A stretch of 53,656 nt of DNA from Lachnospiraceae bacterium (GTDB lineage Bacteria > Bacillota > Clostridia > Lachnospirales > Lachnospiraceae). A program made the position numbers and the translations under genes. This document shows positions 3,502 through 51,521 of the stretch, piece by piece. Position 1 is the first letter of the stretch, and the number at the start of each line of letters is the position of its first letter. The DNA lies in NCBI GenBank assembly GCA_017614155.1, contig JAGACK010000038.1, forward strand, positions 1 to 53,656, in the 5' to 3' direction. Under the pieces are notes generated by a model. It made no database searches and had not been told where the DNA came from. It saw nothing but the letters and a program-made list of their open reading frames with translations.

Positions 3502-3614
3502 GATTTCTCCTTCTCGCTCAGATTCTCTTTTTTCCGGGAACAAACGACATTTTTTTCAAACCCTTATCCTTTGCTCTGCAGCGATTCACATCAATGGCAG
3601 CACTCACAAACAGT

Positions 3615-3645
3615 CAATAAAAGGAACAACCTATCCGGTTGCTCC
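3615..3645 (-). terminator. Terminator of the 54-codon leader-peptide gene
   Basis: On the minus strand GGAGCAACC and GGTTGTTCC form a nine-pair stem with one G-U wobble and a five-base loop (stem 3623-3631 with 3637-3645), followed by TTTTATT. It lies 50 bases past the stop of the small gene and ahead of the ECF gene. Confidence 0.75.
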
Positions 3646-3694
3646 TTCATATACCAAAAAAACAAAGCCTTCTCTGTTGCGTGCATCACATAAT

Positions 3695-3859
3695 TCATCT
3701 CCTAGGTTCAAAACAAGTGCCATAATCTCCGCCGCCGGAGACATGCTCCAGTTCATCTTCACTTAAGGACATTTCGTCATCCTCTGTCGTCTCTTTGATA
3801 ACTTCCTTTGTTTCGGTCTTTTCGGCCTTATCCTTAAACCTGTCTGATGATATCATCAT
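3695..3859 (-). CDS. 54-residue double-glycine-leader peptide precursor
   Basis: This short gene encodes a charged N-terminal segment, then LSEDELEHVSGG (residues 32-43), a textbook double-glycine export leader, then an 11-residue tail GDYGTCFEPRR. Cleavage after Gly-Gly would release this 11-mer with one cysteine. The reading frame is supported by AAGGAGG five bases before ATG ATG, a TATAAT box 48 bases upstream and a strong terminator downstream. Known double-glycine peptides are bacteriocins or signalling peptides exported by C39-peptidase ABC transporters, none of which is in this window. The long acidic pre-leader (about 31 residues) is unusual. I do not recognise the mature peptide. The next gene upstream on the same strand has the same leader type. 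Confidence 0.75.
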   Translation of the reverse strand: MMISSDRFKDKAEKTETKEVIKETTEDDEMSLSEDELEHVSGGGDYGTCFEPRR

Positions 3860-3906
3860 ATTCCTCCTTATAAATTGTCTTTAGTTTATAAACAGCCTTC
3901 TGCAGT

Positions 3907-3912
3907 ATTATA
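3907..3912 (-). promoter_or_regulatory. Likely -10 box for the 54-codon gene
   Basis: Perfect TATAAT on the minus strand, 48 bases before the start codon. The -35 region is poor (TTAGAC about 18 bases upstream is the best match), so the promoter may be weak or activator-dependent. Confidence 0.45.
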
Positions 3913-3966
3913 CGACAAAACTGAAAAAAGGTCTAAGTGGTTTCAGGGGCAAATTAAAGACAAATA

Positions 3967-3994
3967 AAAGCACCTGCTGTTAAACAGATGCTTT
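3967..3994 (-). terminator. Terminator of the 70-residue leader protein gene
   Basis: Stem 3967-3976 pairs with 3985-3994 (AAAGCACCTG against CAGATGCTTT, one mismatch), followed on the minus strand by TTTATTTG. It lies 20 bases past the stop codon at 4014. Confidence 0.65.
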
Positions 3995-4013: not shown

Positions 4014-4226
4014 TCAGTTTTTTCTTCTGACATTTGTTGTTCCGCAATCCGGACATACAAAGGCATTTTCCGGACACTCTTCAAGAGCGGATAAATTGAT
4101 GTCCCACTCATGACCAAATTCACAGATCATTGTCTGCATCACCTGATATTCGCCGTCTCCTCCATTGCCGCCACTGACCTTGTCCAGATCCGCATCTGTC
4201 AGATTCCTTTTATTTTCCTCAGCCAT
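4014..4226 (-). CDS. 70-residue protein: double-glycine leader plus small zinc-ribbon-like cargo
   Basis: The first 20 residues end NLTDADLDKVSGG, a double-glycine leader like that of the 54-residue gene next door. The remaining 50 residues carry a glycine-rich linker, then Cys, a second Cys and a CPDCG knuckle, as in zinc ribbons, and a basic C-terminus (NVRRKN). The start follows AAAGGGGGTTAC. The gene has its own terminator. Small leader-bearing proteins with CxxC cargo are seen in Lachnospiraceae, but I know no proven function; secretion as a peptide, or use of the leader as a recognition tag, are both open. It follows a truncated beta-lactamase-like gene by 62 bases. Confidence 0.75.
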   Translation of the reverse strand: MAEENKRNLTDADLDKVSGGNGGDGEYQVMQTMICEFGHEWDINLSALEECPENAFVCPDCGTTNVRRKN

Positions 4227-4288: not shown

Positions 4289-5173
4289 TTAAAACTCCCT
4301 GTCCCTCTCATTTACTAAAAATATAATGACCTTTGAATCAAGATCTATCTTTCCGTCCGTGACAAGCTTCTGCAGGCTGTAATTTACCGAAAACATCTTT
4401 GTTACCGAAGCAAGGTCATAAAGCGTGTCGTTTGTCACGTCTTTGCTGTCCGTGATCCTTTCCCCTTCGGGAGAATATGAATTTACCTTTCCCCAGGAAT
4501 TCTCATATACAAGGATCCCGTTTCGGATGACCGCAAGCTGGGCGCTTGTAAACCCATGCTCTATATCAGACGAGATAATATCCGATACGGCATCCAGTGC
4601 TTCCTGCCTGATGCCTGCCTCCTCCGGCGTTCCCTCCCTGACTTCAGGATAAGGGATATTTATCTTTACCGCTTCCGTCATATCCAGGGGCTCTATTGAT
4701 GAGACCATGACTGTATTTCTCCCGTTCTTTGCAGCATCGGAAAAATCCAGTTCATATACCCCTCCCGGATTGATCCCTGAGGTGTCGGCTTTCCTGTCGT
4801 TTATAAACAGATCAAAGGATTCCACATTGTCCGAAACGGATATATACATCTTTCCCTGGCCGCTGTATCCGTCAAAGCCCGCGATACTGTTCAGGGCAAG
4901 GGTATCATCGACCTTCCCGCGCCGGTCGGGAAATACAGCCTCCGTCTGCCATTCTCCTTCGGGGACGGCTTCCACACTTTCAAGGGAAAGCATTTCCTTT
5001 TTCTGTCCGGATTCTTCTTTGTCCACATCCTGTCCGGACCTATCCTCCTCTTTATCTTCTTTATCTGTACCCGTGGCGTAGATCGTTTCAACTGCCTCGG
5101 TACATCCGGTAAGCAGCCAAACAGCCGCGATCAACACAGCCACGATCTTTTTGTATGATACCCGTTTTTTCAT
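4289..5173 (-). pseudogene. Truncated serine beta-lactamase/transpeptidase-like lipoprotein
   Basis: Class C beta-lactamase-fold proteins (PF00144 type) are serine hydrolases, often esterases or D-Ala-D-Ala carboxypeptidases. The product begins with a lipoprotein signal ending LLTGC, then an acidic low-complexity linker, a domain of unclear type (about 60-180) and the start of the hydrolase domain with its SxxK motif in ASVTKMFS. Sequence similarity ends about 20 residues later, after DLDSKV, and the frame stops at 294 residues. The YxN and HxG catalytic motifs are missing, so an active enzyme is unlikely. The start at 5173 has AGGAG seven bases upstream; an in-frame ATG at 5197 is the alternative. 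It lies 72 bases after the alpha-galactosidase gene on the same strand. Confidence 0.75.
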
Positions 5174-5245
5174 CCTTTTCTCCTGTTCTAAATTCATTGT
5201 GCCTGTAAAAACAGACTAAGGCAGGGAGACATATCTCAGGCCTGC

Positions 5246-13070: not shown

Positions 13071-13334
13071 CTAAAAGATGGTATTGCATACTGTGCACTT
13101 GAACCTGCCTCCGGAATACTCCTCGCATTCCTTCTCTGTCTTGCAGGAAGGGCAGTTTTTCATCACTACCGTATATCCGCACTTGCTGCATATTATCCTG
13201 TTCCCGTTCTTTTTGCGTACACCGCCGCATTTGGGGCAGGGTGCCACATCCGTTTCCTGTTCTGTCAGCCGGCCGCCGGATACATTCACGAGTTCATCTT
13301 CGTTCAATTGTTCAAACCTCCTGATTCGAAGCAT
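13071..13334 (-). CDS. 87-residue protein: double-glycine leader plus double zinc ribbon
   Basis: The N-terminal 21 residues end EQLNEDELVNVSGG, the same leader pattern as the two small genes near 4 kb. The rest contains four CxxC knuckles (CPKC, CSKC, CPSC, CTVC), enough for two zinc ribbons. There is no membrane segment or classical signal peptide. The start has AAGGAGG about nine bases upstream and a TATAAT 30 bases upstream. It is a single-gene unit, so no export partner is implied by neighbours. Either the leader sends a zinc-ribbon domain out of the cell or the resemblance marks a different function; I cannot choose. Confidence 0.75.
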   Translation of the reverse strand: MLRIRRFEQLNEDELVNVSGGRLTEQETDVAPCPKCGGVRKKNGNRIICSKCGYTVVMKNCPSCKTEKECEEYSGGRFKCTVCNTIF

Positions 13335-13363: not shown

Positions 13364-13369
13364 ATTATA
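13364..13369 (-). promoter_or_regulatory. Likely -10 box for the 87-residue leader protein
   Basis: Perfect TATAAT on the minus strand 30 bases before the start. No good -35 match is visible, as for the 54-codon gene. Confidence 0.45.
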
Positions 13370-13406
13370 CGAAACACAAACCAAAATGGCTAACATATCG
13401 AAAAAA

Positions 13407-49244: not shown

Positions 49245-50288
49245 ATGAAAGAAAACAATCCTTTTACCCTGACATTTGGAAAACTCCCAAACGAATATAT
49301 ATCCCGAAATGACAACATATACGATATAGTAAGCTGTTTTGATGCCGATAACCCCGTAAGTCAGACATTCCTGATCGAAGGGGTACGCGGAAGCGGAAAA
49401 ACCGTGTTAATGACAGCTGTCAGTGCCGATCTGACAGAAAGAAAAAGGTGGATATCGGTTGATCTGAATCAAACCCAGGATCTCCTGAAAGATCTGGCAA
49501 TGAGACTTGTCATAGCCTGCAAAAAAGCGCCCGATATAATGAAAACAGGGTTTAATATATCATTTGCAGGTTTTGGAGTGGGAATAAACGACAGCAGCGG
49601 ATTTTATGATGAGGTTAGCATCATCGAAGAAATAATGGAGCAGCTCAAAAAAAAGAATAAAAGGCTGCTGATAACCATAGATGAAGTTTCAAATAGTGAG
49701 AATATGCGCAGATTCGCCAGCCAGTTTCAGCTGTTTGTGCGAAAAGACTACCCGATCTTTCTTATTATGACAGGACTGTATGACAATTTATACTCGATAC
49801 AAAATGACCCATCCCTGACCTTCCTTTTGAGAACTCCAAAGATCAGAACCGAACCTCTCGGTCTGAACCGCATCGCAAGACAATACTCTTCAATCTTTGA
49901 GATATCCGGTAATGAAGCCGCGGATCTTGCCATGATCACAAAGGGATATGCCTTTGCTTTTCAGGCTTTGGGAATGATCTATTATGAGCATAGAAACGGA
50001 TCAACTCTTGATGAAATGATCAACATGCTTGATGACATGCTCGACGACTTTGTATACAAAAAAATCTGGTCAGAACTATCGGGACGGGATAGAAATATCA
50101 TTCTATCAATCACAGAAGACAGGATGAAAGTCGGAGATATTTGCAAAAAAAACGACATGACATCAAACAATTTTTCCATCTATAGAGATCGTTTAATAAA
50201 AAAGGGAATACTCACTTCTCCGCAGCACGGATATCTTTCCATAGCACTCCCACGATTCAGAGAAGTTGTAAGTTCTTATCTGGAATGA
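49245..50288 (+). CDS. P-loop ATPase with C-terminal winged helix, paralog 1
   Basis: 347 residues of an AAA/Orc1-Cdc6-like NTPase group found in many Lachnospiraceae. Walker A is GVRGSGKTVLM (about 45-55), Walker B LLITIDEVS; FLIMTGLYDN holds the sensor region. The last 70 residues look like a winged helix (MTSNNFSIYRDRLIKKGILT). NNPFTLTFG is the family N-terminus. Function is not known. Ribosome site AAGGA. A paralog follows 195 bases later; the two are alike along their whole length but clearly diverged. Confidence 0.85.
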   Translation: MKENNPFTLTFGKLPNEYISRNDNIYDIVSCFDADNPVSQTFLIEGVRGSGKTVLMTAVSADLTERKRWISVDLNQTQDLLKDLAMRLVIACKKAPDIMKTGFNISFAGFGVGINDSSGFYDEVSIIEEIMEQLKKKNKRLLITIDEVSNSENMRRFASQFQLFVRKDYPIFLIMTGLYDNLYSIQNDPSLTFLLRTPKIRTEPLGLNRIARQYSSIFEISGNEAADLAMITKGYAFAFQALGMIYYEHRNGSTLDEMINMLDDMLDDFVYKKIWSELSGRDRNIILSITEDRMKVGDICKKNDMTSNNFSIYRDRLIKKGILTSPQHGYLSIALPRFREVVSSYLE

Positions 50289-50483: not shown

Positions 50484-51521
50484 ATGAATAACCCTTTCAA
50501 CATTTCATTTGGAATAATCCCTCCGCAGTTCATCTCGAGATTATCGCAGACTTCGCAGATTCTCGACACCTTCAGGTCTGATACCCCGTCAAGCATGACA
50601 TATATACTAACAGGAGTCAGAGGTTGCGGAAAAACTGTTCTGATGACTTCTATCTCCGAATCTCTCAAGAGGGAAAAAGACTGGATCACTTTGGAATTAA
50701 ACCCCGAACGTGATCTATTGACACATCTGGCCGCCTCTCTCTATGCCATTCCGGAATTCAGAAAAATATTTGTTGAGGTCGGACTTGATTTTTCGGCATT
50801 GGGACTTGGCGTGAGCCTGGAAAACTCTGTTCCGGTATCAGATGCGGAAGTTGCAGTCGACCGAATGCTGTCATATATCAAAAAAACTAATAAAAGACTG
50901 CTGATAACCATAGACGAAGCAGCAAACACTGCTAATATGCGTGTATTTGCTGCATCTTATCAGATCTTTATCCGAAAAAACTATCCGCTCTACCTGCTTA
51001 TGACGGGATTGTATGAAAACATCTACACTCTCCAGAATGAAAAATCACTTACTTTTCTCTACAGAGCCCCCAAGATCATACTTGATCCTTTGAATTACAC
51101 TGCCATACGAGCTCATTATAAAAAAATATTTAACATATCAGATGATAAGGCAGAGAAAATGGCTGCTCTGACAAAGGGCTATTCATACGCTTTTCAGGTT
51201 CTCGGTTTCCTGATGTGGGAAAAACCCGAATGCTCTCTGGAAGACATACTCCCGGAATACGACCAATATCTTGAGGAATATGTATATAATAAAATATGGT
51301 CTGAATTATCTGATATAGACAGGAAAGTTTTGTACGCGATAGCCTCAACCGGAACAGAAGAAGTCACATCTATACGGAATTCCCTGAATATGAGCACTGA
51401 AAAATTCTCAGTATACAGGGATCGTCTCAAAAGAAAGGGTCTTATAGACACATCCTCATATGGAAGAATATCTCTTATTCTCCCAAGATTTGAATCTTTT
51501 ATAAAAATGCGTCTTGCATGA
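50484..51521 (+). CDS. P-loop ATPase with C-terminal winged helix, paralog 2
   Basis: 345 residues. Walker A GVRGCGKTVLM, Walker B LLITIDEAA, then LLMTGLYEN, matching paralog 1 in order and spacing. The C-terminal winged-helix region is MSTEKFSVYRDRLKRKGLID. Most of the divergence lies at about 85-130. The ribosome site is AAGGTG. It converges with flagellin 1. Confidence 0.85.
   Translation: MNNPFNISFGIIPPQFISRLSQTSQILDTFRSDTPSSMTYILTGVRGCGKTVLMTSISESLKREKDWITLELNPERDLLTHLAASLYAIPEFRKIFVEVGLDFSALGLGVSLENSVPVSDAEVAVDRMLSYIKKTNKRLLITIDEAANTANMRVFAASYQIFIRKNYPLYLLMTGLYENIYTLQNEKSLTFLYRAPKIILDPLNYTAIRAHYKKIFNISDDKAEKMAALTKGYSYAFQVLGFLMWEKPECSLEDILPEYDQYLEEYVYNKIWSELSDIDRKVLYAIASTGTEEVTSIRNSLNMSTEKFSVYRDRLKRKGLIDTSSYGRISLILPRFESFIKMRLA

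Follow-up and report, generated by a model that had tools for sequence, protein, structure and literature searches.

A short double-glycine-leader gene in a Lachnospiraceae genome, apparently one of a family with conserved leaders and mostly different tails

The window (the whole stretch of 53,656 nucleotides that was analysed) carries, on the minus strand at 3859-3695, a 54-codon frame that, as far as sequence can tell, is apparently a real and monocistronic gene for a double-glycine (GG)-leader precursor. At a probability of roughly 0.6, we read it as a genuine gene of a leader family with a shared promoter motif, whose 11-residue product would be exported by a C39 exporter (PCAT), which belongs to a repertoire with swapped tails, and whose role is that of a secreted signal or a competition peptide. 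The initial annotation had proposed a self-contained 54-codon gene with such a leader and an 11-residue tail, and its frame is confirmed, on the minus strand. Its picture of a lone gene was incomplete, as about 20 GG-type ORFs (counted by hand) occur in the genome and nine of them, the 3859-3695 gene included, carry one promoter motif. Two observations go beyond it: the promoter motif common to nine GG genes, and relatives in which leaders are conserved and tails mostly different. The parts of the gene are as follows.

3731 to 3859, minus strand: double-glycine leader of 43 residues (42 if M2 is the start), ending LSEDELEHVSGG; profile match at E 1.7e-9 against 58 leaders of other genomes
3698 to 3730, minus strand: predicted mature peptide GDYGTCFEPRR, 11 residues; the cut after GG follows C39 specificity
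3695 to 3697, minus strand: stop codon TGA, read from the sequence
3863 to 3869, minus strand: Shine-Dalgarno site AAGGAGG; its spacing favours the second ATG, at 3856
3907 to 3914, minus strand: -10 element CGTATAAT, from promoter scan and motif match
3931 to 3936, minus strand: -35-like element TTAGAC, which fits TT[AG]G[AC]C-N16-CGTATA
about 3621 to 3647, minus strand: hairpin AAGGAGCAACC-GGATA-GGTTGTTCCTT followed by TTATT, likely terminator; fold z -3.1 for 3605-3694
3967 to 3994, minus strand: terminator-like hairpin between the 54-codon gene and the GG zinc-ribbon gene at 4014-4226, from the terminator scan

Read from 3859 to 3695, the frame consists of the leader MMISSDRFKDKAEKTETKEVIKETTEDDEMSLSEDELEHVSGG, with L-12, E-8, L-7, V-4 and G-2G-1, then the one-cysteine tail GDYGTCFEPRR as originally read, and then the stop, which falls inside 3695-3859. 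Both upstream signals that had been claimed are present. The TATAAT box lies at 3912-3907 (scan score 10 of 12, with TAGACC 17 nt upstream) and the AAGGAGG site at 3869-3863. The site leaves a gap of only 3 nt before the first ATG but 6 nt before the second, so translation may begin at M2 and yield 53 residues. The claimed terminator stands in part: the hairpin at 3647-3621 is stable and begins about 50 nt past the stop codon, but its T-run is weak and short and it is missing from the output of the terminator scan, which makes the label likely, not certain. The upstream terminator-like hairpin at 3994-3967 lets the gene be read as a separate unit. Its neighbours are a protein without assignment, the GG zinc-ribbon gene and a beta-lactamase-like gene; no receptor, receptor kinase, regulator, exporter or immunity gene was recognised beside it.

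Several other frames of the window were noted in passing. The GG-leader gene at 4014-4226 (minus strand) has a zinc-ribbon-like tail (CEFGHEW...CPDCG) and lacks the shared promoter motif; tails of this type (C..HEW/HQW..CxxC) also occur in the related loci L091, L102 and L136. The frame at 4289-5197 (minus strand, 302 residues) is of the beta-lactamase family and covers only positions 9-79 of the 329 in the profile; a similar frame in the related locus L145 has 733 residues, so this copy, beside the GG genes, looks truncated. At 49245-50288 and 50484-51521 (plus strand) lie two adjacent, similar ORFs of 347 and 345 residues that are ATPase-like by eye.

Membership in the leader family was assessed with a profile of 58 distinct leaders, none of them from the window genome, which was searched against 1529 stop-to-stop frames of the window. 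The 3859-3695 frame is the top match (34.3 bits, E 1.7e-9), followed by 4226-4014 at 18.7 bits, and the best of 38167 frames in 20 Markov-shuffled windows reaches 10.6 bits. The earlier argument that the gene is more than chance is thereby upheld. In a genome-wide search with alignment A3, the same leader has E 1.6e-7. An evenly drawn sample of 299 genomes of the family contained the window genome and, from the same genus, G041; eight of the 299 have a leader match at E 1e-6 or better, and both of these genomes belong to the eight. On these matches, the leader family is concentrated in the source genus, with scattered members outside. A profile scan of named genome contigs (alignment A2) gave 24 loci, mostly labelled Lachnospiraceae and including isolates AC3007 and AD3010, with one locus each labelled Ruminococcaceae and Atopobiaceae; many of the isolate codes belong to what we take to be ruminant sets. 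Viral carriage of the family was considered and dropped, as no relative was found in the viral contigs searched with A2.

Homologues with a conserved frame were an expectation for a real gene, and here leader and tail have to be separated. Of the 48 genus genomes, 34 have leader matches, up to 22 in one genome (G027), at E 0.01 with alignment A1, which includes the 3859-3695 peptide itself. For the tail, the DNA flanking the gene was searched in the genus and matched in 27 of the 48 genomes, the window's own among them. The peptide is absent from the 11 other flank-matched loci fetched, each a few kb long, so no conservation of GDYGTCFEPRR is demonstrated. Established protein models were compared as well. 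For TIGR01847 (bacteriocin_sig, cut-off 15.7 bits), the peptide scores 14.6 bits by hmmscan, and 14.7, or 16.1 with its frame neighbours, in the genome search. It scores 12.4 bits for the class II bacteriocin model PF10439 (cut-off 27.1), is not among the matches of the ComC model PF03047, and is not among the matches at E 10 of the Nif11-like leader model TIGR03798 (curated cut-off 32.3 bits), for which one relative's peptide scores 11.7 bits.

The promoter motif TT[AG]G[AC]C-N16-CGTATA was derived by eye from the regions upstream of GG genes in this genome and was then searched throughout its 2.64 Mb, where it has 11 sites against one for the reverse-read control. The site of the 3859-3695 gene is 3909-3936. 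Nine of the 11 sites precede GG-leader ORFs, namely the 3859-3695 gene, a GG zinc-ribbon gene at 13334-13071 in the window and seven elsewhere, one of which (C42, LNDDMLENVSGG) was missed by the pattern of the script and read by eye; the remaining two lie upstream of ORFs of 96 and 477 residues. Since eight of the 11 sites, including that at 3909-3936, were used in the derivation, the fair test within the genome is small: one of three new sites precedes a GG gene. At roughly half of the GG ORFs, the adjacent 4226-4014 among them, the motif is missing; some of these ORFs are the second or third gene in a row. The third GG-leader gene of the window, 13071-13334 (minus strand, LNEDELVNVSGG), contains several CxxC pairs and has the shared motif at 13366-13393.

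Related forms of the motif were found in other genomes. CGTATAA stands no more than 150 nt upstream of 27 of 63 leader genes of relatives, which are related to each other and not independent, compared with 5 of 329 control ORFs. A form TTGCCA-N14..17-CGTATAA has 101 sites in the 48 genomes against 33 reverse-read controls. A GG-leader ORF follows 15 of the 30 such sites that were examined in loci, or 10 if a narrower ORF pattern is used; L221 and L238, two of these 30, are members from which the promoter form was derived. Random positions precede a GG ORF in 133 of 6000 cases when taken from the same loci and in 29 of 5040 when taken from other loci. The TTNGCC form has no overall excess in the genus (91 sites, 120 controls), with single genomes at 8 against 1 (G029), 5 against 1 (G026) and, in the window genome, 10 against 4. 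Either sigma-A or an alternative sigma factor may recognise the motif; a TATAAT with 17-nt spacing may be a plain sigma-A promoter, and a literature search for a known sigma factor of the motif found none.

Export is suggested by the exporters of the genome and by the leader itself. Four C39 peptidase domain matches are present, in ORFs of 714-780 residues (best 136.5 bits), and the leader has the GG, L-12, L-7 and V/I/L-4 residues of PCAT/C39 substrates. For the C39 protease LahT150, the available parts of one report describe that the residues equivalent to L-12, L-7, V-4 and GG matter and that 13 leader residues are enough for cleavage (PMC6363468). By analogy with established C39 exporters, one of the four PCATs would bind the leader, cut after GG and release GDYGTCFEPRR outside the cell. 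In the genus, leader matches occur in 34 of 42 genomes with C39 domains and in none of six without (48 genomes, Fisher p 0.0002), where G030, with a weak C39 match of 25 bits, is counted as without; counted as C39-bearing, it gives 34 of 43 against 0 of 5 (p 0.001). Restricted to the 22 high-quality genomes, the comparison becomes 16 of 18 against 0 of 4 (p 0.002), or 16 of 19 against 0 of 3 (p 0.013) with G030 counted as C39-bearing. As the genomes are related, all these p values are optimistic.

Whether leader genes lie physically close to exporters was also considered. Across the genus, 3 of the 63 strong leader genes have a C39 domain within 10 kb, against an expectation of 1.6. This is no clustering; linkage is unsupported for them, and the leader genes are mostly orphans. 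When all 125 entered leader matches (E 1e-3 or better) are counted, 12 lie within 10 kb of C39 against 3.1 expected, a weak support. The one clear case is L080 (in G041), where an exporter pair is flanked by two leader genes. In the window genome, two loci (L036 and L037, on C10 and C32) hold C39 exporters with companion genes; L037 also has a long-leader GG precursor and a 651-residue neighbour that is possibly a maturase, by eye.

For the role of the released peptide, our best guess, a weakly supported one, is a secreted signal or competition peptide, with a signal more likely than a killer. The two roles proposed in the initial annotation, signalling peptide and small bacteriocin, both stand as candidates. 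The charge-balanced 11-mer, its acidic and basic residues being equal in number, suits a signal better than a pore-forming bacteriocin; leader matches, however, number up to 22 in a genome, which is many for pheromones. A small, unmodified bacteriocin, exported by a PCAT to kill or inhibit neighbours, would fit the GG leader, which class II bacteriocins also have, and an arsenal would be in keeping with numerous, diverse tails in each genome. Class II bacteriocins are mostly 25 residues or longer, and the tail here has 11 and is not amphipathic by eye. Five NCBIfam models match the peptide weakly; four of them are bacteriocin or peptide-pheromone models, but all five fall below their cut-offs. 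With no immunity gene recognised beside the gene either, we consider a bacteriocin unlikely.

The peptide might instead be the precursor of a RiPP, with the tail modified before export by an enzyme encoded elsewhere, as in prochlorosins. In favour of this, the N-terminal half of the leader is conserved beyond the 13 residues that the C39 protease LahT150 needed, and NHLP/N11P precursors can sit far from modification and export genes, according to the sections available of PMC2887384. The enzyme search covered LanC-like domains (PF05147), which are absent from the window genome and present in one of 48 genomes of the genus, one without a leader match; moreover, the short tails of relatives are poor in cysteine (3 in 641 residues), against which the single Cys of GDYGTCFEPRR is unusual. 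A RiPP thus appears improbable. A modified product as such is possible, a lanthionine is unlikely, and the lanthipeptide reading is disfavoured by the near absence of LanC-like domains.

How tails and leaders have evolved was followed in 63 distinct leader-family ORFs, collected by leader pattern within loci L080-L142. Their tails have 3-79 residues (median 16). Where two leaders share at least 85% DNA identity (63 pairs), the tails are less than 65% identical in 50 pairs and at least 80% identical in 10. The leaders have a median pN/pS of 0.33 (46 leaders of 42 residues, 168 pairs) and, on this ratio, are under purifying selection. Several genomes carry, in differing flanks, a 13-residue tail of the GEFTAYNPNDRPR kind in which G1, F3 and Y6 are fixed; for this tail, purifying selection was not found in five aligned copies (pooled pN/pS about 1.2). 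GDYGTCFEPRR resembles this group slightly better than permutations do (p 0.03-0.04), which is suggestive of membership only and no proof, because the test covered 20 tails, and among the 15 controls one scored better (p 0.014).

Three sets of loci bear on how tails change. In five loci, the last 36 leader codons are identical in DNA and the tails differ by five nucleotide changes, all of them amino-acid-changing (p 0.001 for this confinement to the tail), with assembly error possible because three of these loci start at contig ends. L122, L123 and L124 have contig starts that fall within the leader, roughly 140-150 nt ahead of the point where the tails first differ, as though the sample contained one leader sequence with several alternative tails. 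Loci L129 and L139 are 93.5% identical over 3.8 kb with near-identical flanks beside the ORF, and the ORF itself is replaced (leader pS 0.25; tails AKFGFAPNPPR and NGGFYPAPGRLM). Finally, a gene in L100 (G027) is about 95% identical to copy 1 of a tandem pair in L084 (G040) in its upstream region and N-terminal leader, and about 95% identical to copy 2 in its C-terminal leader, tail and downstream region. The change-over is inside the leader, which is what recombination between leaders would leave, and the gene looks like a crossover product of two tandem leaders. By extension from these relatives, the 3859-3695 precursor would belong to a repertoire in which the leader is retained for export and recombination, inside the leader or in its surroundings, replaces or diversifies the tail.

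Further features of the related loci were recorded. About a dozen GG-peptide genes with different short tails stand in a row at 4616-9957 of L138 (isolate SIG339), and several of their leaders are very similar. Very short aromatic tails follow the GG in L115, L087, L083 and L091 (WSWKWK, FSWPWK, FHWPWG and FPRWFG). HD-GYP, GGDEF-EAL, EAL, response-regulator and histidine-kinase genes lie near short-tail leader genes in L081, L092, L101, L103 and L104; no such signal-protein neighbours were seen beside the 3859-3695 gene.

The same data allow a tail without function to be weighed: the leader would spread or recombine as a cassette, and the tail would be whatever sequence runs up to the next stop, or the copy would be decaying. 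The one tail group tested gave no sign of purifying selection, GDYGTCFEPRR has no orthologue in the loci fetched, and the median of 16 codons is near the 13.7 expected from read-through. The distribution of lengths is nevertheless not geometric (60 genes after three of the 63 were dropped as near-duplicate tails, chi-square p 2e-6), with 1 tail of fewer than 5 codons against 13.4 expected, 41 of 5-20 against 25.9, 4 of 21-37 against 12.0 and 14 of 38 or more against 8.7. In the short tails, G, P, N and D are abundant and Cys is rare, the 13-residue tail recurs across genomes in different flanks, and the 3859-3695 gene keeps its promoter, Shine-Dalgarno site and hairpin. A functionless tail is therefore given a still smaller share of our belief. 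A chance open reading frame with a chance promoter, which the shortness of the gene and the undemonstrated conservation of its own tail would allow, is very improbable given the leader match to an independent profile (E 1.7e-9) and a 22-bit promoter motif at the expected place, although the derivation of the motif drew on this gene too.

Our preferred reading, a PCAT-exported 11-mer from a tail-swapping repertoire, can be extended to a tentative picture that we hold to be doubtful in its full form. The genus would run a promoter-defined set of PCAT peptides in which the leader serves as export tag and recombination platform, tails are exchanged like cassettes, and short tails, including GDYGTCFEPRR, act as lineage-specific extracellular signals. 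Small GG peptides of fewer than 60 codons are easily missed, and scattered ones are not tied to an exporter by their neighbourhood. The shared promoter motif is a handle for finding some of these genes independently of the peptide. Should tail exchange on a constant leader prove real, these bacteria would hold a natural combinatorial peptide library, whose expression, processing and role the motif and leader profile make directly testable.

Among known systems, the streptococcal GG pheromones (CSP, BlpC, BriC) are short peptides exported by PCATs behind a GG leader. The peptide described here is likewise short and stands behind a GG leader; it differs in that no receptor kinase or regulator was recognised beside its gene and PF03047 was not matched. 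Small GG-motif proteins involved in biofilm are described for Synechococcus elongatus in the available parts of PMC4997328; by that description, they are similar in size and in the GG secretion motif, and their extracellular role is one other than killing, as would hold for a signal here.

The literature searched, as far as its accessible text goes, contains no recognised description of this leader family, nor of the short Cys-poor tails, the shared promoter motif or leader crossover, and the main text of a Hungate1000 bacteriocin survey, in the portion available, does not name AC3007 or AD3010 (PMC13289728). The closest parallel comes from Lachnospiraceae bacterium C6A11, whose nine precursors LahA1-9 combine relatively conserved double-Gly Nif11-type leaders with diverse cores, and where the C39 protease of LahT, the PCAT of the LahA cluster, cut all seven precursors tested, in the accessible account (PMC6363468). 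Conserved double-Gly leaders and diverse cores or tails are common to both systems. LahA forms one lanthipeptide cluster, whereas the genes of the genus are mostly scattered, their short tails contain little Cys and LanC-like domains hardly occur. Conserved GG leaders, hypervariable cores and orphan locations are likewise described for NHLP/N11P precursors (PMC2887384), and conserved leaders with diverse cores for prochlorosins (PMC10783134), in the parts of these papers at hand. With both, the present family has in common a leader ending ELxxVxGG-like, a hypervariable core, large paralogous sets and genes away from export and modification loci (PMC10783134, PMC2887384, same parts). The leaders of relatives are mostly 42-49 residues long, in contrast to an average GG position of 83 in NHLP and 70 in N11P (PMC2887384, same parts), and here TIGR03798 is not reached and the LanC-like search found no lanthionine machinery. 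The general design, that is, conserved GG leaders with hypervariable cores encoded by orphan genes, is thus of a kind already known from NHLP/N11P, prochlorosins and LahA.
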